From: Flavihumibacter petaseus NBRC 106054
Lineage (GTDB): Bacteria > Bacteroidota > Bacteroidia > Chitinophagales > Chitinophagaceae
Reading direction: 5' to 3'
Assembly (NCBI RefSeq): GCF_000974785.1
Contig: NZ_BBWV01000002.1
Coordinates: 186,001 to 250,000 of the forward strand
DNA length: 64,000 nt
The notes below the pieces were generated by a model. That model worked only from the letters and a program-made list of their open reading frames with translations, was not told the origin of the DNA and searched no databases. Shown piece by piece: positions 31,840 to 53,688 of this stretch (position 1 is the first letter of the stretch; each line of letters opens with the position of its first letter). The position numbers and the translations under genes are program-made.

Positions 31840-31857
31840 CATGACAGGGCATGACAG
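31840..31857 (+). promoter_or_regulatory. tandem CATGACAG repeat upstream of the rhaEW-type gene
   Basis: CATGACAG occurs twice with two G between the copies, so the copies repeat every 10 bp, one helical turn. It lies 46 bp before the aldolase-dehydrogenase start codon. It may be a regulator site, but it is not the same as the GATCAGG element found before SusC-2. Confidence 0.4.
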
Positions 31858-31902
31858 AAAACCAAAAGTGGGCTTCTACTTTTATTTTCTAATTCACCTA
31901 TC

Positions 31903-34026
31903 ATGAATGATACAATTACACCTGCTTTCCAACATGTGAGCTACCTGTGGGATGCGGACAAAGCAGCGCAACTGGAAGGCGATGAAGTCGCTCTCCTGAT
32001 TTACCGCTCCAACCTGTTGGGCGCGGACCTTCGGTTAACCAATTATGGTGGTGGCAACACCTCCTGCAAAACAACAGGGATCGACCCTGTGAGCGGAAAA
32101 TCAACTGAAGTGATGTGGGTAAAGGGGTCCGGCGGGGATATCGGCACGCTGAAAAAATCAGGACTCGCTGCGCTTTATGTAGATCGGCTCCGGAGCCTCC
32201 GGCAACGGTACCGCGGATTGCAACATGAGGACGAAATGGTTGAACTGTTCAATCATTGCATTTATGATCTGAACAGCAAGGCACCTTCAATCGACACTCC
32301 CCTGCACGCTTTTCTTCCATACAAACATATAGACCATCTGCATCCGGATGCCGCCATCGCTATCGCTGCCGCCAAAGACGGCAAAGCCATTACAGAATCG
32401 CTTTTCGGGGGGCGTATCGGTTGGGTAGACTGGCAACGGCCTGGTTTTGATCTTGGCCTCCGGTTGAAAAAATGCGTGGACGAGAATCCCGGCATCGTCG
32501 GGATCATGCTTGGTTCCCACGGATTGTTTACCTGGGGTGACACGGCGTATTCCTGCTACCTGAATACGCTCGAAGTGGTGGAGCAGTGTGCAAGCTATAT
32601 TGCAGGAAAATCAGCAGAACAGAAACTTGTTTTCGGTGGACAAAAACTGCCGGCTGCTGAAAAGGAGCACCGCCTTCGCCAGGCAGCCGCACTCGCACCT
32701 TACCTGAGGGGCTATTGCAGCAGTCAGCAGCCGATGGTCGGACACTTCACTGACGCCCCTGAAGTACTCGGGTTCATCAACTCGCAGGATCTCAACCGTC
32801 TTGCACCAATGGGTACAAGTTGCCCGGATCATTTCCTGCGTACCAAGATCAGTCCACTTGTGCTGGAATTTCCACCTGATCAGGATATGCATGATGCCGC
32901 CGCCATTCATGCTTTGCTGCAACCTGCTTTCGAAAGCTACCGCCTCCAGTACGCAGACTACTACAATACGCACAGGCATCCTGACAGTCCCGCGATCCGG
33001 GATACTAACCCGGTGGTGATCCTGTATCCGGGTATCGGGATGTTTACTTTCTCTAAAGACAAACAGACTGCCCGTGTGGCGGCTGAATTTTACATCAATG
33101 CCATCAACGTGATGCGTGGTGCAGAGGCGATCAGTTCCTATACTTCGCTGCCCCGGCAGGAAGCATTTGATATCGAATACTGGTTGCTGGAGGAAGCGAA
33201 ACTGCAGCGGATGCCCAAACCTAAGCCCTTGTCTGGCCGCATAGCACTCATTACCGGAAGCGGTGGCGGTATTGGAAAGGCCATTGCGAGGAAGATGGCG
33301 GAACAGGGTGCCTGTGTGGTGCTCACGGACGTGAATGAAGCGCGGTTAAATGAAGCGGGAGAGGAGTTTGCACTTCAGTTTGGAAGAGATGCTGTACACA
33401 CTGCACTGCTTAATGTAACGGATGATCAGTCTGCCGCTGCAGCGCTGGATGCAACTGCCCGCGCCTTCGGCGGCGTAGATATAGTGGTCAACAATGCCGG
33501 TATAAGCATCAGCAAATCCATCGCTGAACATAGTTTGCAGGATTGGGATAAATTGTTTGATATCCTGGTAAAAGGACAGTTCATCGTATCCAAAGCCGGT
33601 GTGGAGGTGCTGCGCAAACAGGCGATGGGAGGAGATATCATCAATATCGTTTCGAAGAATGCGCTGGTAGCAGGTCCCAACAACGCTGGTTATGGATCTG
33701 CCAAAGCAGCACAGGCACACCTCACGCGCCTGCTTGCGGCAGAACTGGGGGGCGACAGGATCCGCGTGAATACTGTCAACCCGGATGCTGTGATCTCCGA
33801 CAGCAATATATGGGCAGGCGGATGGGCTGAAGGCCGCGCTAAGGCTTATGGTATTACAGTTGATGAACTTCCGCAATACTATGCTAAGCGGACGCTGCTC
33901 AATGCCATTATTCTTCCCGAAGATATCGCCAATGCCTGCTTTGTGCTGGCCGGTGGAATGCTGAACAAATCTACCGGCAATACCATCAATGTGGATGGTG
34001 GTGTTGCGGCTGCCTTCCTGCGTTAA
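31903..34026 (+). CDS. rhaEW: bifunctional rhamnulose-1-phosphate aldolase/lactaldehyde dehydrogenase (RhaEW type)
   Basis: The 707-residue protein fuses two enzymes. Residues about 20-430 form a class II aldolase with zinc ligands in HIDHLHPDAA (about 143-152) and GSHGLFTWG (about 205). Residues about 445-707 form a short-chain dehydrogenase with TGSGGGIGKAIARK, NNAGIS and the catalytic pair in YGSAK (about 597-601). This fusion is known from rhamnose catabolism in Bacillus, Chloroflexi and Bacteroidota: it splits L-rhamnulose-1-phosphate into DHAP and L-lactaldehyde and oxidises the latter to lactate. It is closed by the terminator at 34044. The RhaT, kinase and rhamnosidase genes 10-22 kb downstream support the assignment. 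Confidence 0.9.
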   Translation: MNDTITPAFQHVSYLWDADKAAQLEGDEVALLIYRSNLLGADLRLTNYGGGNTSCKTTGIDPVSGKSTEVMWVKGSGGDIGTLKKSGLAALYVDRLRSLRQRYRGLQHEDEMVELFNHCIYDLNSKAPSIDTPLHAFLPYKHIDHLHPDAAIAIAAAKDGKAITESLFGGRIGWVDWQRPGFDLGLRLKKCVDENPGIVGIMLGSHGLFTWGDTAYSCYLNTLEVVEQCASYIAGKSAEQKLVFGGQKLPAAEKEHRLRQAAALAPYLRGYCSSQQPMVGHFTDAPEVLGFINSQDLNRLAPMGTSCPDHFLRTKISPLVLEFPPDQDMHDAAAIHALLQPAFESYRLQYADYYNTHRHPDSPAIRDTNPVVILYPGIGMFTFSKDKQTARVAAEFYINAINVMRGAEAISSYTSLPRQEAFDIEYWLLEEAKLQRMPKPKPLSGRIALITGSGGGIGKAIARKMAEQGACVVLTDVNEARLNEAGEEFALQFGRDAVHTALLNVTDDQSAAAALDATARAFGGVDIVVNNAGISISKSIAEHSLQDWDKLFDILVKGQFIVSKAGVEVLRKQAMGGDIINIVSKNALVAGPNNAGYGSAKAAQAHLTRLLAAELGGDRIRVNTVNPDAVISDSNIWAGGWAEGRAKAYGITVDELPQYYAKRTLLNAIILPEDIANACFVLAGGMLNKSTGNTINVDGGVAAAFLR

Positions 34027-34043
34027 TCTTATTTTAATACCTG

Positions 34044-34083
34044 GCGGTATGATGAAAAAATTGCATTCATCATACCGCTTTTT
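34044..34083 (+). terminator. rho-independent terminator after rhaEW
   Basis: A perfect 13-bp stem, GCGGTATGATGAA (34044-34056) with TTCATCATACCGC (34066-34078), encloses a 9-base loop and is followed by TTTTT. It separates the aldolase-dehydrogenase from the SusC-2 transcript. Confidence 0.93.
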
Positions 34084-34178
34084 AGTTCGGGAGAAATTAA
34101 ACTATCCCGGGTAATTGAATTAAAAATACACGAGCTGCAATGATGTGTGAAGCACTGTTGGTTAACTTGTAGAAGTCA

Positions 34179-34193
34179 GTACAGATCAGGACA
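34179..34193 (+). promoter_or_regulatory. candidate operator, copy A
   Basis: GTACAGATCAGGACA. An almost identical 15-mer lies 43 bp downstream, and a related site lies beside the GntR regulator gene. The region is the promoter zone of SusC-2. Confidence 0.6.
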
Positions 34194-34221
34194 GCAACGA
34201 AAAAAATATTTTCTGTTATCG

Positions 34222-34236
34222 GTACAGATCAGGTCA
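34222..34236 (+). promoter_or_regulatory. candidate operator, copy B
   Basis: GTACAGATCAGGTCA, 14 of 15 bases identical to copy A and in the same orientation. The 43-bp centre distance is close to four helical turns, so two bound dimers would face the same side of the DNA. Confidence 0.6.
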
Positions 34237-34303
34237 AGAATCAACACGAGGCTTTCTAATTTGGATTTAATTAATTGCCTTTTTGTTTGCCAAAGCTAAG
34301 TTT

Positions 34304-37300
34304 ATGAACAAGGATTGCATTGCCAGGAACAACTTCCTGCACCGGGCCCTGATGCTGCTATTGGTGGCCTGTTTTTCAACCAGTCTTTTCGGACAGACAA
34401 CAACAGTGTCCGGAAAAGTTTTTGATTCTTCCGGTACAGCGCCCCTGGAAGGCGTGAGTGTTACCGTGAAAGGAACAAAAACCACAACAGCTACATCCGC
34501 AGACGGCAAGTTTACCATTGCCGCCACACCTGGACAAACGCTGTTGTTCTCGTACGTTCAGTACGACAATGTTTCCCACGTGATCTCCGGCCAGGAAGAT
34601 ATCCTGATCCGTATGCCGCTGAAGTCAAAGGAAATGGCGGATGTAGTGGTGGTGGGTTATGGTCAGCAGAAGAAGGTCAGCGTGGTAGCCGCCATCTCCT
34701 CCATGAAAGCAACCGGCCTTCTTCAGACACCGGCTTCCAATATCGGCGTAGCACTGGCCGGCCGCCTGCCGGGTCTTACCGTGCTGCAACGTTCGGGTAT
34801 TCCGGGATCTGAGACGATCGACTTTTACATTCGTGGGCGCAGTACCATCAATGAACAACGCCCATTGCTGATGGTGGACGGTGTAGAACGCGATTTCAGT
34901 GCACTCGACCCGCATGAAATTGCCACCATATCGATCCTGAAAGATGCCTCAGCTACGGCAGTGTACGGCGTACGCGGAGCGAATGGGGTGATCATGGTGA
35001 CCACCAGGAGAGGTGTTGCCGGCAAGCCGGTGATTGATGTGACTATGGAAACTTCAAGGCAGTCCCCCACGCGGATGCCGGATATGGTTTCCGCTTACGA
35101 TTACGCCGTGCTGCGTAACCAGGTTGCCGCGCAAAGTGGTAATGCACCTGAATATTCCGACTACGAGCTGGAACGCTACCGCCTGGGTGATAAGCCTGAT
35201 CTCTACCCGGTACGTGACTATGTGGGTGAGTTCACCCAGACGGCTCCTATGCATCGCATCAACATCAATGTAAGCGGCGGGTCAGAAAAGATGCGCTACT
35301 TTACCACCGTGGGTTATCTCTACCAGGAAGGTCTTTTTAAAACGGAGAAATTCGACGAATACAATTACGACCCGAAATCAAAAGCATCACGGGTTAACTT
35401 CCGGTCCAATTTTGATATCGACCTGAACCCATCGCTGAAAATGTTCCTGAACATCAGCGGCTACATGCAGAAGAAGAACGATCCCATCATCGTTCCCAAC
35501 AATCCATCCTATTATGATGATGCGAATGCCTATTCTGTGATGCTTGCCTCACTGGTGCAGCGTCCCAACCTGGCGAGCAATGATCTCACGCCTGATGATG
35601 AAGTGCTGAGTTCATCCAAGTTTGCCCTGGGAGGTACTGATAATGTGCCTTATGGCATGCTGAACCGCACGGGCTTCCGCAATACGATGACTTCCCAGAT
35701 CACCACCACCCTGGGTGCAGAGCAACGCCTGGATTTTATCACGAAGGGGCTTTATGCAAGGGCTATCGTTTCCTATGATGCCAACTCGGTAAATACACAA
35801 CGCCGTGAACGGACATTTGCTGTATATGATGCTGTTCGTGACCCGGACTCCCCTGATTCATTACGCTATGAACGCCTGGGGTCTTCCGTGAACTCTCCGC
35901 TGGTCGATGCCCAGATCCAAAGCTTCACCAACCTGTTCAACCTGGAAGCGTCACTGAATTACAGCCGTACTTTCCGCAAGCATGATGTGGGCGCCATGCT
36001 GTTGTACAACCAGTACCAGCGGGTGATCAATATCCAGTTGCCTTACAACTATATTGGCTTTGTGGGGCGCGCCACCTACCGCTACAACAGCCGTTACATG
36101 GCTGAAGTGAACTTCGGTTATAATGGCTCTGAACAGTTCGCTCCTTCGCAGCGTTTTGGTTTCTTCCCTTCTTTCTCTGCGGGATGGATCCTGTCGGAAG
36201 AAAATTTCATGAAAGATTATGCGCCCTGGATGGACTTCATGAAGCTCCGCGCATCCTACGGCAAGGTGGGTAATGACCGTATGGGCGCATCCCGCTTCCT
36301 GTATATCGAAAACTGGGGAACCGGCGGCTCGGGCTGGTCCGGATTGCCGGATGGTACTGTACAGCGTAGCATTGCCAACCCGAATATCAGCTGGGAAGTG
36401 AACAATAAATACAATGTGGGCATCGAGACCCGGTTCCTGAGAAACTTCTCTCTCGATATTGACCTGTTTTATGAAATCAGGAACAATATCCTGACCCGTT
36501 CCGGCACAACACCTACTGGTATATTTGGTACAGGGGCTGTTGCAGGAAATGGCCAGGTGTCACTGCCACCCTTGAATGAAGGACGTGTGGAGAATCGTGG
36601 TTTTGAAGTGGTAGCCGGCTATACGGCAACTATCGGTAATGACCTGCGCATCATCATCAACGCTAATGGCGCTTACAACCGCAACAAAGTGCTGTACATG
36701 GGAGAAGTACTGTTGCCGGAAGATTATGCTGTTCGCCAGCGCAGTACGGGATACCGCCTGGGACAGATGTTCGGCTATGAAACTGCCGGCTTCTTTAACA
36801 CACAACGTGACCTGGATACCTGGTATGACCAGACGCCACTCGGTGCAGCACCCAAGCTAGGTGACCTGAAATATGTGGACAAAAACGGTGACAACAAGGT
36901 CGATGAACGTGATATGGTACCCATTGGTAATCCCAATGTTCCGGAATGGAACTACGGCGCAGCAGTAAGTCTTGCCTACAAAGGGTTTGACCTGAGTGTC
37001 ATGTTCCAGGGTACGGCAGTGCGGGGTTATTATCTCAGCGGAACCGGCATCTGGGAAACAGCCAACTTCAATGAATGGCATAAGGAAGCCTGGACGCAGG
37101 ATAAATATGATAACGGGGAGAAGATCACTTACCCCCGCCTGGACCCCGGAAGTACGGCCAGCAAACAAACCAGCGATTTCTGGCTGGCTGACGGAACTTA
37201 TATCCGCCTCAAGAACGTGGAGCTCGGTTATACTTTCCCGCGAAAACTATCCCAGAAGATAGGCGCTTCAAAGATCAGGTTGTATGCAAATTCACTGAAC

Positions 37301-37411
37301 CCGCTCACGTGGGACAGGTACCCGGTGAAGTACTATGATCCCGAATTGAGCAGTAACCTGACCTACCCGATTTTTAAGGCTTACAACTTTGGTTTGAACA
37401 TCTCCTTCTAA
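34304..37411 (+). CDS. SusC/RagA TonB-dependent receptor (locus 2, no STN domain)
   Basis: From ATG 34304 the protein has 1035 residues. A signal peptide (LMLLLVACFSTSLFGQTT) leads straight into the carboxypeptidase-like beta domain (TVSGKVFDSSGTAPLEGVSV), the SusC box MADVVVVGYGQQKK, the plug with DASATAVYGVRGANGVIMVT, and a barrel ending FGLNISF. There is no STN domain, so it is not wired to a FecI/FecR pair and probably relies on the GntR-type regulator encoded 7 kb downstream. It is paired with the SusD encoded 10 bp on. Its import substrate is likely a rhamnose-containing glycan, inferred from the neighbourhood. Confidence 0.95.
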   Translation: MNKDCIARNNFLHRALMLLLVACFSTSLFGQTTTVSGKVFDSSGTAPLEGVSVTVKGTKTTTATSADGKFTIAATPGQTLLFSYVQYDNVSHVISGQEDILIRMPLKSKEMADVVVVGYGQQKKVSVVAAISSMKATGLLQTPASNIGVALAGRLPGLTVLQRSGIPGSETIDFYIRGRSTINEQRPLLMVDGVERDFSALDPHEIATISILKDASATAVYGVRGANGVIMVTTRRGVAGKPVIDVTMETSRQSPTRMPDMVSAYDYAVLRNQVAAQSGNAPEYSDYELERYRLGDKPDLYPVRDYVGEFTQTAPMHRININVSGGSEKMRYFTTVGYLYQEGLFKTEKFDEYNYDPKSKASRVNFRSNFDIDLNPSLKMFLNISGYMQKKNDPIIVPNNPSYYDDANAYSVMLASLVQRPNLASNDLTPDDEVLSSSKFALGGTDNVPYGMLNRTGFRNTMTSQITTTLGAEQRLDFITKGLYARAIVSYDANSVNTQRRERTFAVYDAVRDPDSPDSLRYERLGSSVNSPLVDAQIQSFTNLFNLEASLNYSRTFRKHDVGAMLLYNQYQRVINIQLPYNYIGFVGRATYRYNSRYMAEVNFGYNGSEQFAPSQRFGFFPSFSAGWILSEENFMKDYAPWMDFMKLRASYGKVGNDRMGASRFLYIENWGTGGSGWSGLPDGTVQRSIANPNISWEVNNKYNVGIETRFLRNFSLDIDLFYEIRNNILTRSGTTPTGIFGTGAVAGNGQVSLPPLNEGRVENRGFEVVAGYTATIGNDLRIIINANGAYNRNKVLYMGEVLLPEDYAVRQRSTGYRLGQMFGYETAGFFNTQRDLDTWYDQTPLGAAPKLGDLKYVDKNGDNKVDERDMVPIGNPNVPEWNYGAAVSLAYKGFDLSVMFQGTAVRGYYLSGTGIWETANFNEWHKEAWTQDKYDNGEKITYPRLDPGSTASKQTSDFWLADGTYIRLKNVELGYTFPRKLSQKIGASKIRLYANSLNPLTWDRYPVKYYDPELSSNLTYPIFKAYNFGLNISF

Positions 37412-37421
37412 AATTCTTGTC

Positions 37422-39221
37422 ATGAAAACAACATCTAAATTATACGGAAGCTGCCTCGCGTTATTCCTGGCTATCGGGGTGCTGAGTGGTTGTACCAAGG
37501 CACTGGACAAAACACCGGATGGTACGCTCACCCTTGATAAAGTGCTGGCAGATTATAACCGCACCAAGGGGCTGCTCTCTGTCGCCTATGGAAAGATTTA
37601 TCAGAACCGTGATCAGATCGTGTTTGTGATGCAGCCGGTAGAAGCATTGACGGATAATGCATTCTGGGCTGCCACCTATAATTCCTACGACTGGTATAAC
37701 GGACAGCTGTCGCTTTCCAACCCGGTGATCAACTGGCCCTGGGAATCGCCTTCTGAGCAACTCTGGCCGGATTTCTGGCAGGGTATCCGATATGCCAACA
37801 TTGCCATTGAGAATATTCCGAAGTCGACCAAACCTACTGAGCAGGAGCGGCAACGTTGGGTGGCTGAGGCCCGGGTACTGCGCTGCTGGTATTACATGAA
37901 CCTGCTGGAGTTTTATGGCCCAATGCCGTGGATCGATTATGCCTTCGCAGCAGATTTTTCCGATTGGAACGGGCTGGCAAGACCCAGCTATGACGAGATC
38001 GCCACGATCATTGATAATGAGCTGATGGACGTGATCAACTCCGGCATCCTGCCCAACAAGCGGCCGCTGGATGAAGCTGAATTTGTGTCGAATGCTGTAG
38101 CCTATGCTATCCGTGCAAGAGTTTTGCTGAACAATGCAAGTCCGCTCAACAATTCCAATAATGACCGGGACAAATGGCAGCGGGCAGCCGATGCCGCACA
38201 AGACGTACTGGATCTCTCCGAATTCAGCCTCGTGAGCATGAATGATTACAAGCGCCTGTTCATCGGATCATTCCGCAGTGATGTGTCTGAAATCATCTGG
38301 CGCTCCCCGGCCAGTAACAAGCACATCAATAATACCAATGGCCTGAACATTTCACCCTATCCCTACGCGAGCATACCCTCTCTCTGGAACTGCGGTGAGT
38401 CGCCCACGCAGGAACTGGTGGATTGTTTTGAAATGAAGAATGGTGCCCTGCCGGTAACCTATACCAACAACGACCACACCCAGGTGTCTGTGAATCCGGA
38501 TGCTGCAGCTGCAGGTTACAGTGAGGCCAAAGGTGCGGATCCTTACAAGAACAGGGATGCCCGTTTCTATGTTGATGTCCTCTACAATGGTGCGAACTAC
38601 GGTGCGCCCACCAACTGTACACAGCCGGTGATCGTGGAAAGTTATGTAGGCGGTGCACATGGATTTAACCCGGTGATCTCGCAGGAAACGAAAACATCCT
38701 GTACCGGGTATTACAGCCGTAAAGACAAGGATGTTAAATTCTGGGGCCCGAATTCCAGTGGTGGCGGAGAAGATATTCACTGGGTGTATTTCCGGCTCGC
38801 TGAGTTTTACCTGAACAAAGCAGAAGCGTTATGTGAACTGGATGACCTGGCCGGAGCAGCGCAGGCACTCAACATGATCCGCCTGCGGGCCCAGCAGCCG
38901 GCTATAGAAAGTGTTCCCGGATTTGTGAGTTCAAAAGAATACCTGCGCGAGCGCATCCGTAACGAACGCAGGGTAGAGTTTTGTCTTGAGGGCTGGCGTT
39001 TTCATGATCAGCGTCGCTGGAAGATCCTGAACAACTACAAATCCGTTTCCGGTATGAAGATCACTTCTTCCGATGGCAGCGGCGATCCGGCTACTCTTTC
39101 CTACGAGCGGGTGAAACTACGCGATATGCAATGTTATACTGACAAATACCTGGTAATGCCCATTCCGATTGATGATGCGAAAAAGATGACGGGCCTTACA
39201 CAACCGGCGGCATGGCAGTAA
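37422..39221 (+). CDS. SusD/RagB lipoprotein (locus 2)
   Basis: The 599-residue lipoprotein (signal with VLSGCTKALDKTPDG) has N-terminal helices with NYLxx-type TPR spacing (WVAEARVLRCWYYMNLLEFY), RARVLLNNASPLNN in the middle, and the RagB C-terminus (YFRLAEFYLNKAEALCELDD, then NERRVEFCLEGWRFHDQRRW). It is the surface glycan-binding lid of the SusC-2 channel. The next gene starts inside its last codons with a 10-bp overlap, which ties the SGNH hydrolase to the same transcript. Confidence 0.95.
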   Translation: MKTTSKLYGSCLALFLAIGVLSGCTKALDKTPDGTLTLDKVLADYNRTKGLLSVAYGKIYQNRDQIVFVMQPVEALTDNAFWAATYNSYDWYNGQLSLSNPVINWPWESPSEQLWPDFWQGIRYANIAIENIPKSTKPTEQERQRWVAEARVLRCWYYMNLLEFYGPMPWIDYAFAADFSDWNGLARPSYDEIATIIDNELMDVINSGILPNKRPLDEAEFVSNAVAYAIRARVLLNNASPLNNSNNDRDKWQRAADAAQDVLDLSEFSLVSMNDYKRLFIGSFRSDVSEIIWRSPASNKHINNTNGLNISPYPYASIPSLWNCGESPTQELVDCFEMKNGALPVTYTNNDHTQVSVNPDAAAAGYSEAKGADPYKNRDARFYVDVLYNGANYGAPTNCTQPVIVESYVGGAHGFNPVISQETKTSCTGYYSRKDKDVKFWGPNSSGGGEDIHWVYFRLAEFYLNKAEALCELDDLAGAAQALNMIRLRAQQPAIESVPGFVSSKEYLRERIRNERRVEFCLEGWRFHDQRRWKILNNYKSVSGMKITSSDGSGDPATLSYERVKLRDMQCYTDKYLVMPIPIDDAKKMTGLTQPAAWQ

Positions 39222-40414
39222 GAAAAAATAAATGGCGCAGCGGCTTCCTGCTCCTGGTTTTGCAGGGGCTGCTGCTGCCGGCGGTTGCGCAGCAACAAGG
39301 AACAACGTTACTGTATCGGGCGGTGTTTACGGAGAAAACCAATTTTCCAGATCTGCAGCTGAATAATGTGGCTTGCAGGTTGACGGACAAAGGTCTGGTT
39401 GTTACCGGAAAGGATTCGGTCATACAATTGAACAAATACTACTCCCTGGGAGAAAGACTGGTGCGGTATGAAGTGGTTTTTACTCCCGATGCCGTTGCGG
39501 TCTTTCGCAGCAATACCGGCGACTACCGGCTGGTTATCAATGCTAAGGAACAATGGGCGTCCGTAACAGGAGAAAGTGAGTTCCGGAGATCGGTGCGGAT
39601 ACATCCCGGAAATCCATACATTATTGAGATACGGAAGCATTACCAGGAGTCGCGTGCTGCCATTACCGACCTTGTTACAGGCGAACAGCAGGTGCTGGTA
39701 ATTCAGTCCGACGGTTCAGGCGGGGTAGGTGTGGGGGCAGTGCAGGCCCAGAATACAATGGCGCATCAGTGGGACTACTACTGTTTTGGCCTGCAGCAGG
39801 GAACGTCGCTCACGGTCAGACAAATGACTGTGCAGGCATTGGAATGCAACCTGACATTGCTGCTCTATGGTGATTCGCAGTCAGAAACGGAAGGGTATTT
39901 TCCGGCAAAGGATTTTCCGGATTCCTGGACGCAACTGGTCATGCGGAATATAAAAGGAAAAGCAATATCCAGCGGGCGTGGCGGGTGTACCATTAAAGAA
40001 GTGATGGAACGTATCAGGAATGAATTGCCCTATGTGAAAGCGAAATATGTAATGGTGACCATCGGTACCAACGGGGGCAATACAGAGCAGCTTCTCAGTG
40101 AGCTGGTGGAGTATATCCGTTCCCAGGGTTCCATTCCCATTCTGAACAACGTGCCTGCCAATGAACATGGCTCACAACAGGAGATCAATGCGCTGATCGG
40201 TAAGGTCAGAAAAAAATACAATGTAAAAGGGTGTCAGTTTGATCTGGCTACTTCCCTGCAGCGGGATGGTAAAGAAGTGGACAAAACGACGATGTGGCAT
40301 GAGGATTACACCGCGATCAACAATTGGGGACATTATTATCATCATCCCAATGTAAAAGGGTCGCGCCTGATGTACCTGCAGACCCTGCTGGATATCCCCG
40401 AAATCTACGAATAG
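39212..40414 (+). CDS. exported SGNH/GDSL-type esterase
   Basis: The 400-residue protein has a signal peptide (FLLLVLQGLLLPAVAQQQ), a beta-rich N-terminal domain of about 190 residues, and a C-terminal SGNH hydrolase domain. The blocks visible are LLYGDSQSE (block I Ser near 223), a Gly in SGRGGCT (block II), GTNGGN (block III Asn) and HHPNVKGSRLM (block V His). Family members remove acetyl or other acyl groups from sugars. The position in the SusCD operon, overlapping SusD by 10 bp and the next gene by one base, suggests de-esterification of the target glycan. Confidence 0.82.
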   Translation: MAVRKNKWRSGFLLLVLQGLLLPAVAQQQGTTLLYRAVFTEKTNFPDLQLNNVACRLTDKGLVVTGKDSVIQLNKYYSLGERLVRYEVVFTPDAVAVFRSNTGDYRLVINAKEQWASVTGESEFRRSVRIHPGNPYIIEIRKHYQESRAAITDLVTGEQQVLVIQSDGSGGVGVGAVQAQNTMAHQWDYYCFGLQQGTSLTVRQMTVQALECNLTLLLYGDSQSETEGYFPAKDFPDSWTQLVMRNIKGKAISSGRGGCTIKEVMERIRNELPYVKAKYVMVTIGTNGGNTEQLLSELVEYIRSQGSIPILNNVPANEHGSQQEINALIGKVRKKYNVKGCQFDLATSLQRDGKEVDKTTMWHEDYTAINNWGHYYHHPNVKGSRLMYLQTLLDIPEIYE

Positions 40415-41685
40415 TGAAAACTTGTTTGATTTGGTTGCAGATGGTTATTCCCTGCTGGCTGTTCAGCCAGCAGGTTTTTCCGGTTGTGCTGACTACCGGA
40501 AAAGTATACCAGGTTACACAGCAGAAAACATCCTATACATTTGATTCAGGCCGGTATACGGTGTTCATACCCGATGGTGTGCAGGAGTTGCGTGGCGTGC
40601 TGGTTCATCAGCACGGTTGTACGATGGAAGGGCGGGGCGCAGCTACTGCATTCGATGTGCAGTACCAGGCTTTAGCAAAGAAATGGGGATTGGCCATTGT
40701 TGGTCCCGACCTCTATTCTGCCAAAGGCAATTGCCACGATTGGCGGAACCCTGAATCAGGTTCCGGTGAGGCGCTGATCGATGCCCTTACAGCGGTGGGC
40801 AGGTTGTCAGGTCATCCTGAACTCGCCGGTTCGCCCTGGTTGCTTTGGGGACATTCCGGCGGTGGGTACTGGGCTTTATCTATGCTGCGGATCTATCCCG
40901 AAAGGATCATCGGTGTTTTTGGTTACTCGCCCGCATTCGAGCCTGGTGCCTATCCGGCCAAAGCGCTGAAAGTACCGGTGATGATGCGTCACGCAGGGCC
41001 GTCAGGTGATGCCTGCTGCTGGCGCACCTCCATTACGGAGTTTGGAAAATTGCGAAATGCGGGCGGATACGTTAGCATAGCCTATACGCCCTACCAGAAT
41101 CACAACTACAGCTGGGTGCGGTACATGGCTATTCCTTTCTTTGAATCTGTATTACAACAAAGGTTGCCTGTTGGTACTGGTAAAGATTATCATGCCCTTC
41201 GCGATATGGATCCTGCGCAGGCCTGGTTAGGTGATACCACGTCATACAATATTAGTCCCGTTGCAGCCTATAACGGCCAACGAAAAAATGCCTGCTGGTT
41301 TTCGGATTCACTTACTGCTGCGCGCTGGCGGGAATATGTGATCACCGGAACATTGATCGACCGCACACCGCCACCGGCACCGTATGCGACGAAAATACAG
41401 CGAAGGCATAATGTAACCGTAGCGTTGTACTGGAAAGCAGATGCCGATGTGGAATCCGGCATCAGCCATTTCAATATTTACAAAGATGGTCAATGGGTAC
41501 AGCGGTACCCGGCAACTGGTGTGTTCCAGCATTTTGATACCAATGGCGATGATGCGATCCCGCTGACAGTACCGCTGCTGCAAACTGATCTGACCTATCT
41601 CTGGAATGAGTCCGGAAAAATATCCATCAGCACGGTGAATGCCGCCGGCCTTGAATCAGCACGCACACCATTCCCTTCACGGTAA
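40414..41685 (+). CDS. exported alpha/beta hydrolase (PHB-depolymerase/acyl-esterase-like) with Fn3-like tail
   Basis: Translation probably begins at GTG 40414, which overlaps the preceding TAG (TAGTG), giving a signal VKTCLIWLQMVIPCWLFSQQ and a 423-residue protein. A longer in-frame ATG start at 40324 lies inside the upstream gene and lacks a signal. The catalytic domain has the oxyanion region VHQHGCTME and the nucleophile elbow LLWGHSGGGYWAL. About 90 C-terminal residues (PPPAPYATKIQRRHNVTVAL, then GISHFNIYKDGQWV) form an Fn3-like module. It is likely a second esterase acting on the locus 2 glycan, but feruloyl, acetyl or peptide esters cannot be told apart. Confidence 0.8.
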   Translation: MKTCLIWLQMVIPCWLFSQQVFPVVLTTGKVYQVTQQKTSYTFDSGRYTVFIPDGVQELRGVLVHQHGCTMEGRGAATAFDVQYQALAKKWGLAIVGPDLYSAKGNCHDWRNPESGSGEALIDALTAVGRLSGHPELAGSPWLLWGHSGGGYWALSMLRIYPERIIGVFGYSPAFEPGAYPAKALKVPVMMRHAGPSGDACCWRTSITEFGKLRNAGGYVSIAYTPYQNHNYSWVRYMAIPFFESVLQQRLPVGTGKDYHALRDMDPAQAWLGDTTSYNISPVAAYNGQRKNACWFSDSLTAARWREYVITGTLIDRTPPPAPYATKIQRRHNVTVALYWKADADVESGISHFNIYKDGQWVQRYPATGVFQHFDTNGDDAIPLTVPLLQTDLTYLWNESGKISISTVNAAGLESARTPFPSR

Positions 41686-41702
41686 TTTAAAACTGAAACG
41701 AT

Positions 41703-43490
41703 ATGAAATTATTTAGGGTGACCCTGTGGTTGCTTCTTCCGGTAATGGGAAGAGCACAGCACCGGGAAGAGGTTCCTGCACGCGCCAGCGGCGCTGACCT
41801 GGTCGGTATTGATCAGTTTGGCAGAAGTTTTGGCACGATCAGCGGCTATAAGGAAAAAAAACAGGTCGGGATATTTTACTGGCCCTGGATCGGTCAGCCC
41901 TATGCCAGTGGGGTGTATGATGCCACGAAGATCACGGCATTGCCCAATGGGCAGAAAATATTGTATGATTTCAAGTTTCTCAATGATTCCATCAGTCCCA
42001 CCGGGCAGGCACATTTCTGGGGAGAACCATTGTGGGGATACTATAACTCAGAAGATGAGTGGGTGATCCGCCGCCAGATGACGATGCTCACCATGGCGGG
42101 AGTAGATTTTATTGTTTTCGATCTCACCAACCGCGTTACCTACCGTAAAGTGTATGAGCGGGTATTGGCCACTATCGAAAGCCTGCAACGCCAGGGACAA
42201 ACCCCGCCCCGTGCCGTGTTCTATACGCACTCCCAGTCTTTTGGTACTACCTGGCAGGTATATGAAGAATTGTATCAACCCAATCTTTACCCCGATGCAT
42301 GGTACCGCGTGAATGGCAAACCGATGATCATTGCCTATACGAATGAGGAAGACGACATTGCTGAAGCCAAAAGCCGCAATGATACAGCGTACCGCCCCAG
42401 GCCTTATTCTGAAGAGATCAAAAATTTCTTTTACTTCAAAAAACCGCAGTGGCCATTTGATCCGACGTATCCGGATGGTTTCCCCTGGGTGGAATGGAAA
42501 TTTCCGCAGCCGCTGCATGGCAACATTATGAGTGTTACTGTTGCCAGTCACCCGAAAGTGCCCATGTCACGTTCGATCACCTCCGGCTGGATCAACTGGG
42601 GCCGCGGCTGGGATCCCGATCAGCAAAAGAATATTGCTGCTGATGTCGACAAGGGTACTTTCTTTCAACGGCAATGGGACCATGCGTTGTCCGTAGACCC
42701 GGATACGATTTTTGTGGGTGGCTGGAATGAATGGATCGCCTACAAACAGCCCTATGGTGATGAGTATATGCTTTGTGATGCTGCCAACCGGGAATATTCG
42801 CGGGATATCGAACCCATGCGTGATGGATATGGTGATGCATTTTATGTCCAGCTGATCAAAAATGTGCGGCAGTACAAGGGCTTGCAGAACAAGATCGTTC
42901 CCTATCCGGTTCACCCCATCAATATTGATGGCGGCAGGCAACAGTGGGAAGAGGGAGGCGCTTTGTTCCGGAATACGGATACACTGGCCATTGCGCGCGA
43001 CAATTATGGTGTAACGCAGAAGATTCACTACCGGCAGGAGGCGCCGCGGAACAATATCCAGGAAATGCGGGTGAGTCATGACCGCGACAATTTTTATTTC
43101 CTCATCCAGACAGAAAAAGCTTTTCAACCCGCGGCCAAAGGGCAGGAAGGGTTGCAGTTGCTGGTAGGAAATGGTGTACCCCGGTTAACCGGCTGGCACG
43201 GATATCGTTACAGGATCAGGCTCAACGAAGGTAACAAGGTTGCCGGCGTATATCAGCTTGACAATACCGGCAAAGCAAAAACTGTGGGAAAAGCTGCGGT
43301 ACGCATTAATGGGAATACCGTTCAACTTCGTGTGCCCCGCGCGGCATTGGGAACCGGCAGCGGAAGCGGAAGTATTTATGTGAAAGCAGCTGATGGGATC
43401 CGCTTACCCGGAGATATACTGGATTATTATGTAACCGGTAGTGCCCTGCCATTAGGCAGCCTGAGCTATTCCTACGCCTATGGCGAGTAG
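41703..43490 (+). CDS. GH71/GH99-like exported glycoside hydrolase with C-terminal beta module
   Basis: The 595-residue protein has a short signal (LWLLLPVMGRAQ). An (alpha/beta)8 domain of the GH99/GH71-like type opens with VGIFYWPWIGQPYASG, then MTMLTMAGVDFIVFDLTNRV, a Tyr/His strand PRAVFYTHSQS, and DTIFVGGWNEWIAYKQPYGD, where acidic residues for catalysis are expected. A CBM9-like beta domain follows from about 450 (MRVSHDRDNFYFLIQTEKAF). Sister families cleave endo-alpha-mannan or alpha-1,3-glucan, but this subgroup is uncharacterised as far as I know. It ends the SusCD-2 operon, 17 bp after the hydrolase gene, before a hairpin. Confidence 0.75.
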   Translation: MKLFRVTLWLLLPVMGRAQHREEVPARASGADLVGIDQFGRSFGTISGYKEKKQVGIFYWPWIGQPYASGVYDATKITALPNGQKILYDFKFLNDSISPTGQAHFWGEPLWGYYNSEDEWVIRRQMTMLTMAGVDFIVFDLTNRVTYRKVYERVLATIESLQRQGQTPPRAVFYTHSQSFGTTWQVYEELYQPNLYPDAWYRVNGKPMIIAYTNEEDDIAEAKSRNDTAYRPRPYSEEIKNFFYFKKPQWPFDPTYPDGFPWVEWKFPQPLHGNIMSVTVASHPKVPMSRSITSGWINWGRGWDPDQQKNIAADVDKGTFFQRQWDHALSVDPDTIFVGGWNEWIAYKQPYGDEYMLCDAANREYSRDIEPMRDGYGDAFYVQLIKNVRQYKGLQNKIVPYPVHPINIDGGRQQWEEGGALFRNTDTLAIARDNYGVTQKIHYRQEAPRNNIQEMRVSHDRDNFYFLIQTEKAFQPAAKGQEGLQLLVGNGVPRLTGWHGYRYRIRLNEGNKVAGVYQLDNTGKAKTVGKAAVRINGNTVQLRVPRAALGTGSGSGSIYVKAADGIRLPGDILDYYVTGSALPLGSLSYSYAYGE

Positions 43491-43520
43491 TTCCTGTTTT
43501 TGAAATTGACTGTCATAACG

Positions 43521-43552
43521 AGCGCCCGTGCAGAAGAACCTGCATGGGCGCT
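43521..43552. terminator. hairpin between convergent transcripts
   Basis: AGCGCCCGTGCAG (43521-43533) pairs with CTGCATGGGCGCT (43540-43552), with one G-U wobble, around AAGAAC. It lies between the ends of the plus-strand locus 2 operon and the minus-strand regulator gene. No T run follows on either strand, so its termination strength is uncertain. Confidence 0.6.
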
Positions 43553-43567
43553 TGCTTAATGGAAGGT

Positions 43568-44599
43568 CTATAACGAAGGCCTGAGCCGCAGGCGGAAAGG
43601 CACTTTGTGTTTTTCCGTTGAGCCATTGAGGATGGCCTGCGCCGCCATTACACCCATTTCCTCAAAGTCTGACGACATGGTGGTAATGCCCTGCAGTACT
43701 ACTTTTTTTATGGGTGTTTCATTGTAGGAGATAATACCTACATCCTGACCGATCACCAGTGATGTTGTCTGGATTTTTTCAATGAGCGTCACGAGGTCAT
43801 CTTCCATCAGGTTGATGTATACTTCGCCCTGTTTGGGATCCACCTGCGTTACATCGCCAATAACCTCATAGGCAAAGGCATTGTCCTGGCAGAAATGGGT
43901 GAAGCCCTGCAGGATCTCTTTGGGGTAGTAGCTATGCCGCGGAAAAATGATTTTGATCGTATGGTATTTGGCGAGGCGGTCAAGTGCTTCCGTGAGCGCC
44001 TGGTAAATGTCATTTTTGAAATCGATCAGGATAGAGCCGAATTCTCCTTTGACCCCCGGCACGATATTGTCCAGCACGATCAGCTTCTCTTTGGGAATGC
44101 TGTTGATCAGCTCTGCAGCATTTTCACCGCCATCAACAAAATGGGGAATGATCACCAGGTGGGTATAGTGTTCCTTATTGCTGGCCAGCAGCCGCTTGAA
44201 CAGGTGATAGTCGTTGTTGTAGATATAGAGATCAATACCCGCCTGTTCACCCAGTACTTTCACCATGGAGTCGTAGATCGCTTTTTTCGGGGTGCTGAGT
44301 TTGTTGAACAGCAGGAAAAGATTCAAAGGCCGCCGGAATGACGTATTTTCAATGAAGTAGCCCCGGCGGGGAACGGCATTTAAAACGCCGAGTTTTCTGA
44401 GTTGCCTGTAGCCTCTTTCGGCTGTATCCCTGGCAACATCGAGTTCAATACTAAGTTCGTTGATGGACGGCATATTATCTCCTGCACGGATATTGCCTTT
44501 TTCAATCTCTTTCAGCACAGCATTCACGATCTGGAGGTATTTCGCTGTGCTGGAGTACGGGTCGACCTTAATCAGGTCAATAATGGCAAGTTTCTTCAT
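43568..44599 (-). CDS. GntR-type DNA-binding, LacI-type ligand-binding transcriptional regulator
   Basis: The likely start is the ATG giving MKKLAIIDLIKVDPYSSTAK (44599; an upstream ATG at 44641 adds 14 residues). Residues about 10-80 form a winged helix of the GntR family (EKGNIRAGDNMPSINELSIE, then RGYRQLRKLGVLNAVPRRGY). Residues about 90-343 form a periplasmic-binding-protein-like sensor (HLVIIPHF, KLIVLDNIVPG, VGIISYNETPI) that would bind a sugar. This hybrid build is used by Bacteroidota sugar regulators. It is divergent from the aldolase-isomerase-rhamnosidase operon, and a candidate operator lies in the shared spacer and before SusC-2. Rhamnose or a derivative is the likely ligand, by inference. 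Confidence 0.88.
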   Translation of the reverse strand: MKKLAIIDLIKVDPYSSTAKYLQIVNAVLKEIEKGNIRAGDNMPSINELSIELDVARDTAERGYRQLRKLGVLNAVPRRGYFIENTSFRRPLNLFLLFNKLSTPKKAIYDSMVKVLGEQAGIDLYIYNNDYHLFKRLLASNKEHYTHLVIIPHFVDGGENAAELINSIPKEKLIVLDNIVPGVKGEFGSILIDFKNDIYQALTEALDRLAKYHTIKIIFPRHSYYPKEILQGFTHFCQDNAFAYEVIGDVTQVDPKQGEVYINLMEDDLVTLIEKIQTTSLVIGQDVGIISYNETPIKKVVLQGITTMSSDFEEMGVMAAQAILNGSTEKHKVPFRLRLRPSL

Positions 44600-44670
44600 A
44601 ACAATCTGCTTTGTAATGTACGTTTTCCTGCCTTTTCTCATCTGATTTTAATGTGCCTGAAAAAACCTTT

Positions 44671-44685
44671 TCTGGTCAGGTCAAA
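44671..44685 (+). promoter_or_regulatory. candidate operator, copy C
   Basis: TCTGGTCAGGTCAAA in the spacer between the divergent regulator and operon. It shares the core TCAGGTCA with copy B before SusC-2, and the 10-mer fits G(A/G)TCAGG(A/T)CA. Confidence 0.55.
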
Positions 44686-44755
44686 ACAGGATAGAGAAGT
44701 TGCAGGCGCGGTTTAATATTGTACCAACAGATTGCTTTCTAATCTAACTGGAATT

Positions 44756-46081
44756 ATGGGAATCACATTGCTTGACACGAATCTAATGCATCCGGCCGAA
44801 CAGATCACCATCATCATGCAAAGAATTTATGACCGCGTGATGACCACCACATCGGGTGGAAATATTTCGGTGATCGATGATGCGGGGAATATATGGATCA
44901 CACCGACGGGAGTGGACAAAGGCCTGCTGAAAGAGTCCGATATTGTTTGTATTAAAAAAGACGGAACTGTAGAAGGCGTTAATCAGCCCTCCTCTGAATT
45001 TCCCTTTCACCAGGCCATTTATGAAGTGCGGCCCGATATCAGGGCAATTGTTCATGCCCATCCGCCGGCGCTGGTCGCCTTCAGTATTGTACACCAGGTG
45101 CCTGACATGAGCGTCTTTCCGCAATCCTGGAAACTCTGTGGTGAAATTGGTTATGCGCCCTATGCCTTGCCCGGTACAGCTGCACTGGGCAAAGAAGTAG
45201 CGGAAGCATTCAGTAAAGGACACGATGCGATTATCATGGAGAATCACGGTACCGTGGTAGGAGGGACTGATCTCAATGCCTGCTATCAGCGTTTCGAAAT
45301 GCTGGAGATGACGGCACGCACCATCATTTACAGTAATATGATTGGCGCAACACCTGATTACCTTGATAAAGACATGCTGGCAAATTATGGGATTGCCCAG
45401 GGTAAGCCTGTCATACAGGAAGGCCGGGCACTGAGTGGCGAAGAACGCTCCCGCAGATCTGAAGTGTGCCGCATTGTGGCGCGTGCCGGTAAGCAGGGAC
45501 TTATTCTCAGCGGTTTCGGAACAGTATCCGTGAGATTGAAAGATGGCCTGCTGATCACGCCAGGCAATAAGCCGCGAACGGATCTCCAGCCACATGACCT
45601 TGTTCGCGTGACCAATGGGAAGCAGGAGCCCGGTAAGGTGCCCTGTGCTTCAATCCTGCTGCACCAGTGTATTTATGACCGGCACCCGGAGATCAATGCC
45701 ATTATCCTCACCCAGCCGGCCTACCTGATGGCTTACGCTATTTCAGATGCACCGTTTAATGTGCGTTCTATACCCGAAACCTGGATCTACCTGCAGGACC
45801 TTCGCAAGCTGCCCTTCGGCTTACAGGAGGAAGGCGCACCGGAAGCGATTGCAGAAGCCTTCTCTCCCGATCAGCCGGTGATGCTCATACGCAACGAAGC
45901 CGTACTGGTTGCGGGCACCAAACTGTTGCAGACATTTGATTACCTTGAAGTTTCCGAGTTCAGCGCCAAATCACTTGTCCTGTCTACCAGCATCGGCGAC
46001 ATGGTGCCGATCAGCAAAGAGCGCGTCGACGAACTCGGCAAGGTGATGAGCAAATGGAAGAACTATGAGTGGAAGATGTAA
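44756..46081 (+). CDS. tandem class II aldolase/adducin protein, second half degenerate
   Basis: From ATG 44756 (an upstream in-frame TTG is less likely) the protein has 441 residues made of two aldolase domains. The first (about 10-215) keeps the zinc site in HAHPPA (about 100) and ENHGT (about 162), and the phosphate-binding TTSGGNIS. The second (about 225-440) has the same fold signature (LSGFGTVSVRL, LLITPGNKP) but TQPAYL in place of HxHP (about 318) and RNEAVLVAG in place of ENHG (about 379), so it cannot bind zinc. It probably cleaves a ketose phosphate such as rhamnulose-1-phosphate. It opens an operon with isomerase, rhamnosidases, RhaT and kinase. Confidence 0.85.
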   Translation: MGITLLDTNLMHPAEQITIIMQRIYDRVMTTTSGGNISVIDDAGNIWITPTGVDKGLLKESDIVCIKKDGTVEGVNQPSSEFPFHQAIYEVRPDIRAIVHAHPPALVAFSIVHQVPDMSVFPQSWKLCGEIGYAPYALPGTAALGKEVAEAFSKGHDAIIMENHGTVVGGTDLNACYQRFEMLEMTARTIIYSNMIGATPDYLDKDMLANYGIAQGKPVIQEGRALSGEERSRRSEVCRIVARAGKQGLILSGFGTVSVRLKDGLLITPGNKPRTDLQPHDLVRVTNGKQEPGKVPCASILLHQCIYDRHPEINAIILTQPAYLMAYAISDAPFNVRSIPETWIYLQDLRKLPFGLQEEGAPEAIAEAFSPDQPVMLIRNEAVLVAGTKLLQTFDYLEVSEFSAKSLVLSTSIGDMVPISKERVDELGKVMSKWKNYEWKM

Positions 46082-46107: not shown

Positions 46108-47082
46108 ATGAGTTATCAGTATTCAATCATTCTGGGAAACCTGGGGAATACCTGCGACCGCTTTTGCAAGGGGTACAAGGATAATCCGTCTTCTCCCGAA
46201 ATGTTGTCACGTGCCCTGGCAGCCATGCCGGGTATCAGCGGAATCGAACTGGTGGGAACCTGGGATATTCATTCCGGCAATGTTAAGGAAATGAAGCAGC
46301 GGCTGGCTGATGCCGGTGTCGCCTGCGCCAGCATTATTCCCGATACCTTTTCTCCCAAAGAATATGGCAAAGGTACTATCACCAGCAGGGATCCTGCTAT
46401 CCGTAAAAAGTCACTCGATTATCTCCGTGAAATGAGTTATATCGCACTCGAAATGGATTGCAATATTGTGAACCTCTGGATGGCGCAGGATGGTTATGAT
46501 TACCTGCTGGCAGCTGACTATGACCAGGGCCGGGAATGGCTGAAGGAGAATACCCAAAAACTCGCAGAAGAATTCCCGTCGCTTCGGTTTGCGCTTGAAT
46601 ATAAACCCAAGGAGCCGCGCAATTTTTCCTATCACGCCCGTATGGCAGATTCCATTCTTGCTGCAAAGGAAACCGGTTGCAGCAATGTAGGGATAACCAT
46701 CGATACCGGTCACAGCTTTGTTGCCGGGGAGAATGTTGCCGAAGCCGTAGTACTCGCGAAACGCGCAGGCGATATGCTTTTTCATATGCACTTCAACGAC
46801 AATCATGGCAGCTGGGACGATGATATGATCGTGGGTACCGTACATTTCGCTACCTATATCGACCTGCTGTTCTGGCTAAAGAAAACTGGTTACAATGGAT
46901 GGATCTCCATGGATCAGTATCCCTACCGGGAAGATGCTGCTGAAGCCATTGCAGAGAGTATCCGCTGGGTACAACACTACGAAAGGCTGGTTGATGCCCA
47001 TTTTGACGAGATCGATTCCCTCATCAAAGAAAACGATGCCATCCGCACTTCCCGATTCCTGCGCAAGCTGGTGGGAGCCTAA
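46108..47082 (+). CDS. RhaI-like TIM-barrel sugar isomerase
   Basis: The 324-residue protein belongs to the xylose-isomerase-like TIM-barrel superfamily. Its metal-ligand strands are LEYKPKEPRN (about 168), ITIDTGHSF (about 197), HFNDNHGSWDDDMIVGT (about 231) and SMDQYPYRED (about 269). The HFND...DDD run and EYKP strand closely resemble L-rhamnose isomerases of the Pseudomonas stutzeri/RhaI type, as I remember them, although those are about 100 residues longer. L-rhamnose to L-rhamnulose conversion is the best guess, and D-apiose-type or other ketose-aldose isomerase activity is the alternative. The stop overlaps the start of the first rhamnosidase gene (TAATG). Confidence 0.75.
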   Translation: MSYQYSIILGNLGNTCDRFCKGYKDNPSSPEMLSRALAAMPGISGIELVGTWDIHSGNVKEMKQRLADAGVACASIIPDTFSPKEYGKGTITSRDPAIRKKSLDYLREMSYIALEMDCNIVNLWMAQDGYDYLLAADYDQGREWLKENTQKLAEEFPSLRFALEYKPKEPRNFSYHARMADSILAAKETGCSNVGITIDTGHSFVAGENVAEAVVLAKRAGDMLFHMHFNDNHGSWDDDMIVGTVHFATYIDLLFWLKKTGYNGWISMDQYPYREDAAEAIAESIRWVQHYERLVDAHFDEIDSLIKENDAIRTSRFLRKLVGA

Positions 47083-49799: not shown

Positions 49800-49829
49800 C
49801 GGATACCGGATCGATTAATAATGATTGCC

Positions 49830-52598: not shown

Positions 52599-52602
52599 CT
52601 GT

Positions 52603-53688
52603 ATGCAAGCAATATTTGGTGTTATCTATCATTTTATCGGCGGCTTCGCTTCCGGGAGTTTTTATATCCCCTTCCGGAAAGTGCGGTCCTGGAGCTGGGA
52701 AACCTATTGGCTGACCGGCGGACTTTTCTCGTGGCTGATTATGCCACCATTGATGGCATGGTTAACGATCCCGGATTTCGGCAAGATCATCAGTGAAACA
52801 TCCTCCTCCACGTTTTGCTGGACCTTTATATGGGGCATGCTGTGGGGTGTCGGCGGACTCATGTATGGCCTGGGGATGCGCTACCTGGGAATGTCGCTCG
52901 GTAATTCTGTACTGCTTGGTTTCACCTCTGCGTTTGGCGCGCTGGCACCGGCGATTTATTATGATTTCGCCCCGGTTGCCGGAAAGACCGGATTTCTTGA
53001 ACTCCTGCAGACCGGCTGGGGCAGAACCGTACTCGCCGGGGTGCTCGTTTGTCTGATCGGAATTTATTATTGCGGAAAAGCAGGTTTTCTGAAAGAAAAG
53101 GAGTTGCCCGAAGAAAAGAAGAAGGAAAGTGTAAAAGAGTTCAACCTGACAAAAGGCCTGGTCGTATGTATCGTTTCCGGCATACTCAGTGCATGTTTCA
53201 ACTATGGCATAGAAGCCGGTGCCCCGATGGCGCAGGCTGCCAATGCTGCCTGGAAAGCGCAACACCCGGAAGCGACCATCAATTTTCTTTTTCAGAACAA
53301 CGTGATCTATGTAGTGCTGCTCTGGGGCGGACTGACCAGTAATCTTGCCTGGTGTCTGTTCCTGCATTTTAAGAACAAAAGTTTCCGGGATTATACCGAT
53401 AAGAAAACGCCCCTGCTGAACAACTACCTGTTTGCTGCGCTGGCAGGCATCACCTGGTTCATGCAATACCTGTTTTACGGGATGGGGGAAAGCAAACTCG
53501 GCAACGGCGCCAGTTCCTGGATCCTGCACATGGCTTTTATTATCCTTGTAGCGAATATCTGGGGATTTGTGATGGGCGAATGGAAGGGCGTGAGCAATAC
53601 AACCAGGAGGAATATCCTGGTGGGTGTTGCTGCTATTATTTTATCGGTAGTATTGGTAGGTTACGGAAATTCGTTAAACAACAATTGA
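52603..53688 (+). CDS. rhaT: L-rhamnose/H+ symporter
   Basis: The 361-residue protein, from ATG 52603, has about ten hydrophobic segments. It shows the RhaT N-terminal pattern IYHFIGGFASGSFYIPFRKV with SWSWETYWLTGGLFSWL, then LGMRYLGMSLGNSVLLGFTS and the loop with APMAQAA before the C-terminal half. RhaT of Escherichia coli imports L-rhamnose with a proton across the inner membrane. The gene lies 4 bp after the second rhamnosidase gene and 1 bp before the kinase gene, so the operon couples release, import and phosphorylation of rhamnose. This gene is the firmest sugar assignment of the region. Confidence 0.93.
   Translation: MQAIFGVIYHFIGGFASGSFYIPFRKVRSWSWETYWLTGGLFSWLIMPPLMAWLTIPDFGKIISETSSSTFCWTFIWGMLWGVGGLMYGLGMRYLGMSLGNSVLLGFTSAFGALAPAIYYDFAPVAGKTGFLELLQTGWGRTVLAGVLVCLIGIYYCGKAGFLKEKELPEEKKKESVKEFNLTKGLVVCIVSGILSACFNYGIEAGAPMAQAANAAWKAQHPEATINFLFQNNVIYVVLLWGGLTSNLAWCLFLHFKNKSFRDYTDKKTPLLNNYLFAALAGITWFMQYLFYGMGESKLGNGASSWILHMAFIILVANIWGFVMGEWKGVSNTTRRNILVGVAAIILSVVLVGYGNSLNNN

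Follow-up and report, generated by a model that had tools for sequence, protein, structure and literature searches.

AraR of Bacillus subtilis acts as a repressor on palindromic operators and leaves the DNA on arabinose. Here we examine a protein with the same domain order, encoded in Flavihumibacter petaseus NBRC 106054, together with a motif that stands both before the gene of a TonB-linked outer-membrane importer (SusC-2) and in the spacer between the regulator gene and a divergent rhamnose operon. All positions refer to the window, i.e. the whole stretch of 64,000 nucleotides analyzed (186001-250000 of contig NZ_BBWV01000002.1, C21 in our scans of the 5.69-Mb assembly). Besides domain order, the two proteins share a predicted sugar-domain fold (AraR structure 3tb6, rank 25 of the Foldseek list) and an apparent role in the control of sugar genes, at about 15% identity in the aligned part. 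They differ in the operator, which is predicted here to be a direct repeat whose place in the promoter is fixed.

Other described systems, cited here from excerpts of the papers, share some of these traits. Ravcheev et al. (PMC3878776) predict that ManR (BT2103), a GntR-type monosaccharide regulator of Bacteroides thetaiotaomicron, controls cytoplasmic catabolism genes and a SusC/SusD operon, so that the coupling principle is already known; its sugar, however, is mannose, and it is likened to the window regulator by description. In the same species, the rhamnose regulon has an activator, RhaR (BT3768), which also uses a direct repeat (PMC3870299, PMC3878776), but belongs to the AraC family, with a 21-bp repeat period and one target operon, and no SusC target is reported in the excerpts. 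Rhamnose regulators of AraC, DeoR and LacI type are listed by Rodionova et al. (PMC3870299). The DeoR-type RhaR belongs to another DNA-binding family, and the experimentally studied one, from Rhizobium, is a repressor. MocR-type GntR proteins (GabR, PdxR, TauR) combine the GntR winged helix with direct repeats and activation (PMC5320631), but have an aminotransferase-like sensor and repeats two or three turns apart, whereas XylR and XylRA are activators using direct repeats with a LacI-type sugar sensor (PMC12125979), but with a C-terminal AraC-type DNA-binding domain. The GntR survey of Suvorova et al. (PMC4494728) deals with FadR, HutC and YtrA, includes one Bacteroidetes protein, names direct-repeat exceptions and mentions AraR DNA complexes. 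No account of a GntR/LacI-type rhamnose regulator or of this operator was found in the literature searched, RegPrecise and subscription papers being outside its scope.

We propose, with a probability of about 0.8, that the motif serves a rhamnose regulon as its operator, and that the GntR/LacI-type protein encoded at 43568-44599 (minus strand) binds it and most likely activates on L-rhamnose or an early catabolite, thus linking glycan import to rhamnose breakdown. The sites, their conservation, spacing and orientation, and their co-distribution with the regulator are read directly from the sequences. As predicted, the operator is 17 bp long and made of two 7-bp half-sites in direct repeat, 10 bp, or one helical turn, apart. 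On the strand of the target genes it reads CAGGTCA-AAA-CAGGATA before the rhamnose operon (44677-44693, plus strand), whose first gene encodes an aldolase-family protein, and CRGTACA-N3-CAGGTCA before SusC-2. The SusC-2 promoter holds two copies on the plus strand, CAGTACA-GAT-CAGGACA upstream (34177-34193) and CGGTACA-GAT-CAGGTCA nearer the promoter (34220-34236). With a scoring matrix built from 16 sites of relatives and none of the window, these three sites reached 26.8 bits (match start 44675), 25.6 bits (34175) and 24.3 bits (34218), above the best of 300 shuffles (22.2) and of the reversed window (17.6). Both promoters have a -7-like box exactly 20 bp past the operator, namely TAATATTG for the rhamnose operon (44714-44721, plus strand) and TAATTTGG for SusC-2 (34257-34264, plus strand).

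The next-best site in the window (13.5 bits) lies before the gene of RhaEW, a rhamnulose-phosphate aldolase/short-chain dehydrogenase fusion. It is a perfect direct repeat, CATGACA-GGG-CATGACA (31840-31856, plus strand), 20 bp before the box TACTTTTA (31877-31884, plus strand). Because the reversed window reaches 17.6 bits, this score alone cannot establish the RhaEW site, whose form, place and box do so. A general pattern, CAKGWYR-N3-CAKGWYR with a box, matched the window at 31840, 44677 and 55554 with at most two mismatches, and the reversed window nowhere; the 55554 match lies inside the fructose-1,6-bisphosphatase gene, with a spacing of 21. The SusC-2 sites have at least three mismatches to this general pattern.

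Half-sites matched each other far better as direct than as inverted repeats: 4.75 versus 0.75 of 7 positions for the aldolase-operon sites (4 distinct sites) and 4.62 versus 0.50 for the SusC-2 sites (8 distinct sites). These two classes form the fair comparison, the sites before the rhamnose-proton symporter gene rhaT having been picked beforehand with a direct-repeat pattern. The palindromic operator usual for the GntR family, with known exceptions, is thus not what is found here. A GATC-centred palindrome, suggested by the two window copies before SusC-2, was rejected, since GATC is not kept in other SusC-2 promoters and the inverted matches are poor.

Conservation was assessed in the nine genomes with a close regulator (the window genome, L049, L050, L109-L113 and L148). 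All nine conserve, on the regulator strand of the spacer, CTATCCTGTTTTGACCTGA or a near variant of it, and the same nine genomes all carry a site before the orthologous SusC-2, where CRGTACA-N3-CRGGTCA is kept. For the spacing count, SusC-2 sites were picked with a CRGTACA-N3-CRGGTCA-type pattern after they had first been seen by comparison. In the resulting 18 promoters, the proximal site always has the same orientation, with exactly 20 bp between repeat and box, and the box fits TAnnTTTR without mismatch in 12 and with one mismatch in 6; the distance from the site to the SusC-2 start varies from 49 to 77 bp despite this fixed spacing. Two Parapedobacter genomes, in which the sister clade is the only form of the regulator, yielded no site before their SusC-2 orthologues (best scores 8.6 and 2.3). 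The upstream copy at 34177 has no strong counterpart among the 8 relatives, and a weaker match (15.5) lies further up in L159. In the spacers of L049 and L112, visual inspection shows another repeat-like block, weaker than the first and closer to the regulator start (CCTATCTTGACCAC, regulator strand); it scores below 8 bits and may perhaps serve autoregulation.

An earlier note on this DNA had drawn the element as a 10-mer, GRTCAGGWCA. Its two copies before SusC-2, GTACAGATCAGGACA (34179-34193) and GTACAGATCAGGTCA (34222-34236), 43 bp apart, are as described; the copy in the regulator spacer, GGTCAGGTCA, is present as well, at 44674-44683 instead of the start at 44673 given for it. All three copies exist and exceed chance expectation; the element, however, had been drawn too short and with one copy out of register. 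The alignment of GGTCAGGTCA at 44674 with GATCAGGTCA before SusC-2 is 10 bp out, the CAGGTCA half-site of one promoter being matched to the other half of the second. This register was ruled out, as the form kept by the relatives does not retain the bases that it needs, and equal spacing to the -7 box arises solely in the shifted register.

Might the motif be no more than a word frequent in coding DNA, matched by chance? With one mismatch allowed, the window holds 32 occurrences of the 10-mer (12.3 expected), mostly on coding stretches. The earlier note's remark that only shorter partial matches were noticed in nearby coding DNA does not hold, since a fourth exact copy lies at 27324 within open reading frames (ORFs). 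The exact 10-mer occurs four times in all, against a mean of 0.42 in 300 dinucleotide shuffles, none of which reached four. Since one-mismatch forms are common, conservation must decide: the full sites score higher than any of the 300 shuffles, and nine genomes keep them at a constant spacing. We regard chance as extremely improbable. Genome-wide, the 12-mer form CWGRTCAGGWCA had 18 matches (1 for the reversed-pattern control), 14 of them within ORFs of at least 120 amino acids, and three of the other four are window sites. A loose 15-mer with two mismatches was uninformative (at least 711 matches versus 223 in the control). Stricter patterns gave 62 matches (control 26) and 32 matches (control 10), at 89 distinct places; among the 56 of these that were inspected, 49 lie in ORFs of at least 120 amino acids and 7 outside, where four are window sites and the other three lack a -7 box at the right place.

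The protein encoded at 43568-44599 has an N-terminal GntR winged helix (PF00392, 38.9 bits for a cut-off of 27) and a C-terminal LacI/GalR-type sugar-binding domain (Peripla_BP_3, PF13377, 30.6 bits for a cut-off of 26.5). Its structure model (predicted local distance difference test score, pLDDT, 83.7) has a sugar domain that matches those of CcpA, LacI and AraR (3tb6). Its Pfam matches include no MocR-type aminotransferase-like domain, and its Pfam and NCBIfam matches no AraC DNA-binding domain. The gene lies beside rhamnose genes, with the predicted operator before them. Among 28 chosen rha loci, eight protein families are found in five or more: rhaT (28), RhaEW (28), a 425-amino-acid isomerase-like protein (28), a kinase (27), the regulator (16) and three others (9-10). 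The regulator is the sole recognisable DNA-binding family among them, the others having been named by eye or by tblastn, without Pfam search, and it is therefore taken as the presumed binder. Within the family (Chitinophagaceae), a regulator match at E 1e-30 or better was found in 74 of 147 genomes and RhaEW in 71; both occur in 66, RhaEW only in 5, the regulator only in 8 and neither in 68 (Fisher 2.4e-26). It is very likely that this protein regulates rhamnose genes and ties SusCD uptake to rhamnose catabolism. The coupling of SusCD-2 with the rhamnose operon by one regulator, as the earlier note had suggested, is thus supported by comparison, with sites in 9/9 SusC-2 promoters and 9/9 spacers.

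The wider family also offers a third class of promoters. From 60 stretches fetched, we obtained 45 readable rhaT promoters, one per genome, 40 with and 5 without a regulator match. A repeat followed by a box was found, with at most three mismatches, in 37/40 rhaT promoters of genomes with a related regulator and in 2/900 shuffles; an earlier tally of 31/40 had clipped promoters whose start was set too far upstream, and extension of the stretch gave the 37. At most two mismatches left 35/40 (shuffles 1/900), and at most one 31/40 (0/900). The half-sites are mostly CATGAYR, i.e. CATG rather than CAGG. When the box was left free 5-35 bp downstream of the repeat, in 33 promoters with 0-1 mismatch in the repeat, a spacing of 20 alone was found in 21, 19 alone in 7, a tie of 19 and 20 in 1, a tie of 14 and 20 in 3, and another spacing in 1. 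In 27 of the 66 regulator spacers scanned, the best repeat had 0-1 mismatch, and it was oriented toward the divergent operon every time.

The regulator clade and the half-site form go together. All nine window-type regulators fall into a single, fully supported group. Their winged helix differs from the 56 sister rows at four positions: A56 (where 51 rows have S), R62 (52 have K), and R78 and R79 (all 56 have G and K, respectively); at position 60, 8/9 have V, and the window's own protein has A, like 52 sister rows. In the model, residue 56 precedes helix 57-69, residue 62 lies within it, and 78-79 are in the wing between strands 73-76 and 80-83. Six genomes hold both clades (G119, G147, G148, G149, G151 and G153; no RhaEW was found in G151). 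In all five of these with a readable rhaT promoter, CATG is found before rhaT and CRGG-type half-sites before SusC-2 and the aldolase operon.

Several observations weigh against our proposal. The RhaEW site of the window is of the CATG form, and the genome has no sister-clade regulator of 50-58% identity, its paralogues being 40, 29 and 27% identical; a few sister-clade genomes, for instance G018 and G062, have CAGG-type rhaT sites, against a clean split between clades and sites. The rhaT spacing is 20 or 19, and not uniformly 20. Three of the 40 rhaT promoters lack the site (G064, G127 and G045, where one lies further up). Conversely, 2/5 rhaT promoters carry it in genomes where no regulator was found at E 1e-30; the site is perfect in G016 (98% complete) and weaker in G142 (60% complete). 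Promoters within a class are homologous, so that the independent evidence on spacing amounts to four classes (aldolase operon, SusC-2, rhaT and window RhaEW). Finally, most GntR proteins bind palindromes (PMC4494728, in excerpt).

The direct repeat could instead be the target of a different conserved protein, such as an AraC-type activator, with the GntR/LacI protein acting elsewhere or not here. Direct repeats of 10 bp and longer upstream of promoters suit AraC- and DeoR-type proteins (PMC3870299), an AraC/HTCS-like coding sequence was seen by eye to end just upstream of SusC-2 in G119 and Parapedobacter, and G016 has its site without a regulator found. Against this stand the presence of the site, throughout the nine close genomes, in the divergent spacer of the regulator itself, the joint change of clade and half-site form, and the 28 chosen rha loci, where no other recognisable DNA-binding family recurs. 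We consider a different binder unlikely.

As to the sign of control, the boxes found here come close to the Bacteroidota -7 consensus, TAnnTTTG (PMC9723704, PMC7366714), and the Flavobacterium box lies at -12 to -5 (PMC9723704). If the box holds the same position here, the operator would span about -49 to -33. With start sites inferred in this way, the layout resembles that of a class II activator, with a centre near -41 and a fixed distance and orientation. A direct repeat has a direction, and direction and box distance agree in the four promoter classes, whereas a blocking repressor would need neither to be fixed. Provided that operator and regulator are right, activation is thus favoured, as the rather more probable sign. 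The same operator and regulator might also work by repression, the protein covering the -33 region and leaving it on binding rhamnose or a catabolite. Its architecture is like that of AraR, the site takes in part of the -33 region, a place at which blocking is effective too, and repression is common among sugar-sensing GntR proteins. The single direction and single box distance, and the direct repeat in place of a palindrome, argue the other way, and make a repressor possible but somewhat doubtful.

For an activator, we infer the following course. The regulator would bind both half-sites, which share one side of the helix because of their 10-bp distance. It would do so at the promoter of the rhamnose operon (44677), at that of SusC-2 (34220, plus the second copy upstream at 34177) and, probably, at that of RhaEW (31840). 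The likeness of the sugar domain to LacI-type domains makes L-rhamnose or an early catabolite the probable signal. The ligand-bound regulator would activate from the -41 position, and import of the glycan and breakdown of its rhamnose would rise together.

Beyond the family, 23/296 genomes of the phylum (family members included) match the regulator at E 1e-70. In G307, of the same order, the regulator gene has RhaEW on one side and a SusC gene on the other, and both neighbours carry a site at 20 bp from their box; in G216 a site stands before SusC, 19 bp from the box. With at most three mismatches, 8/19 loci outside the family have a site with a box (13 matches; reversed control, 5); a looser half-site with at most one mismatch gave 5 sites in 4/9 loci (control 0). 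On this thin evidence, SusC coupling to this regulator seems to recur beyond the family. At the level of the class, the relatives in L325, L326 and L327 are 38-40% identical and adjoin RhaEW or RhaT, with CRG-type repeats flanking the regulator gene on one side or both.

The genes around the regulator read as follows; RhaEW, the hairpin after it, SusC-2, SusD-2 and the operon genes from the aldolase-family gene to the FGGY kinase are on the plus strand. RhaEW (31903-34026, above NCBIfam cut-offs) is followed by a terminator-like hairpin with a 13-bp stem and a T run (34044-34083, z -5.7), which a consensus terminator scan with a loop limit of 8 does not list; SusC-2 should therefore need its own promoter. 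The order from 34304 to 43490 is SusC-2 (34304-37411), the first target gene; the glycan-binding lipoprotein SusD-2 (37422-39221); weak GDSL-like and S33-like genes; and a GH99-like gene (41703-43490). The last encodes 595 amino acids with a sub-threshold Pfam GH99 match (E 0.0043), and its model weakly resembles GH71 and GH99 enzymes; relatives occur in 48 loci, many Bacteroidales ones adjoining GH78 and SusCD genes, and some in records titled Clostridia or Bacillota. The rhamnose operon opens with the class II aldolase-family gene (44732-46081; ORF from TTG, first ATG 44757), whose 449-amino-acid product has two matched stretches, below every NCBIfam cut-off shown, in a genome that already holds two RhaEW genes. 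It continues with a TIM-barrel isomerase-like gene, likely for the L-rhamnose isomerase step (46108-47082, below NCBIfam cut-offs), two GH78 alpha-L-rhamnosidase genes (47082-49799 and 49821-52598), RhaT (52552-53688) and an FGGY kinase, likely a rhamnulokinase (53690-55051, below NCBIfam cut-offs); the fructose-1,6-bisphosphatase gene (55074-56090) is its last. A second rhaT-RhaEW-kinase operon lies elsewhere in the genome (C22:1246000-1265999, L294), with no adjacent regulator match. A candidate site there (L294:12240), CCGGATA-GTA-CAGGACG, stands 19 bp before TACATTTA, and this operon probably carries a site of the same type.

For rhamnose use in Bacteroidota other than Bacteroides, these results offer an operator and a regulator that can be put to the test; in Bacteroides, the regulator described is the AraC-type RhaR. 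Activation, if true, would be an unusual mode for a GntR/LacI-type protein. There is about an even chance that the case extends to a class of activators, in which GntR/LacI-type regulators of Bacteroidota, on one-turn direct repeats at -33, put SusC-type importers under a cytoplasmic monosaccharide sensor and not an outer-membrane or periplasmic one, and in which a duplicate of the rhamnose regulator switched its half-site from CATG to CAGG and took over a rhamnosidase/SusCD locus. From the operator one can predict the sugar to which a given SusC importer is tied, and the paralogous regulators, each with its matching operator form, may provide a way to learn how the winged helix reads DNA.

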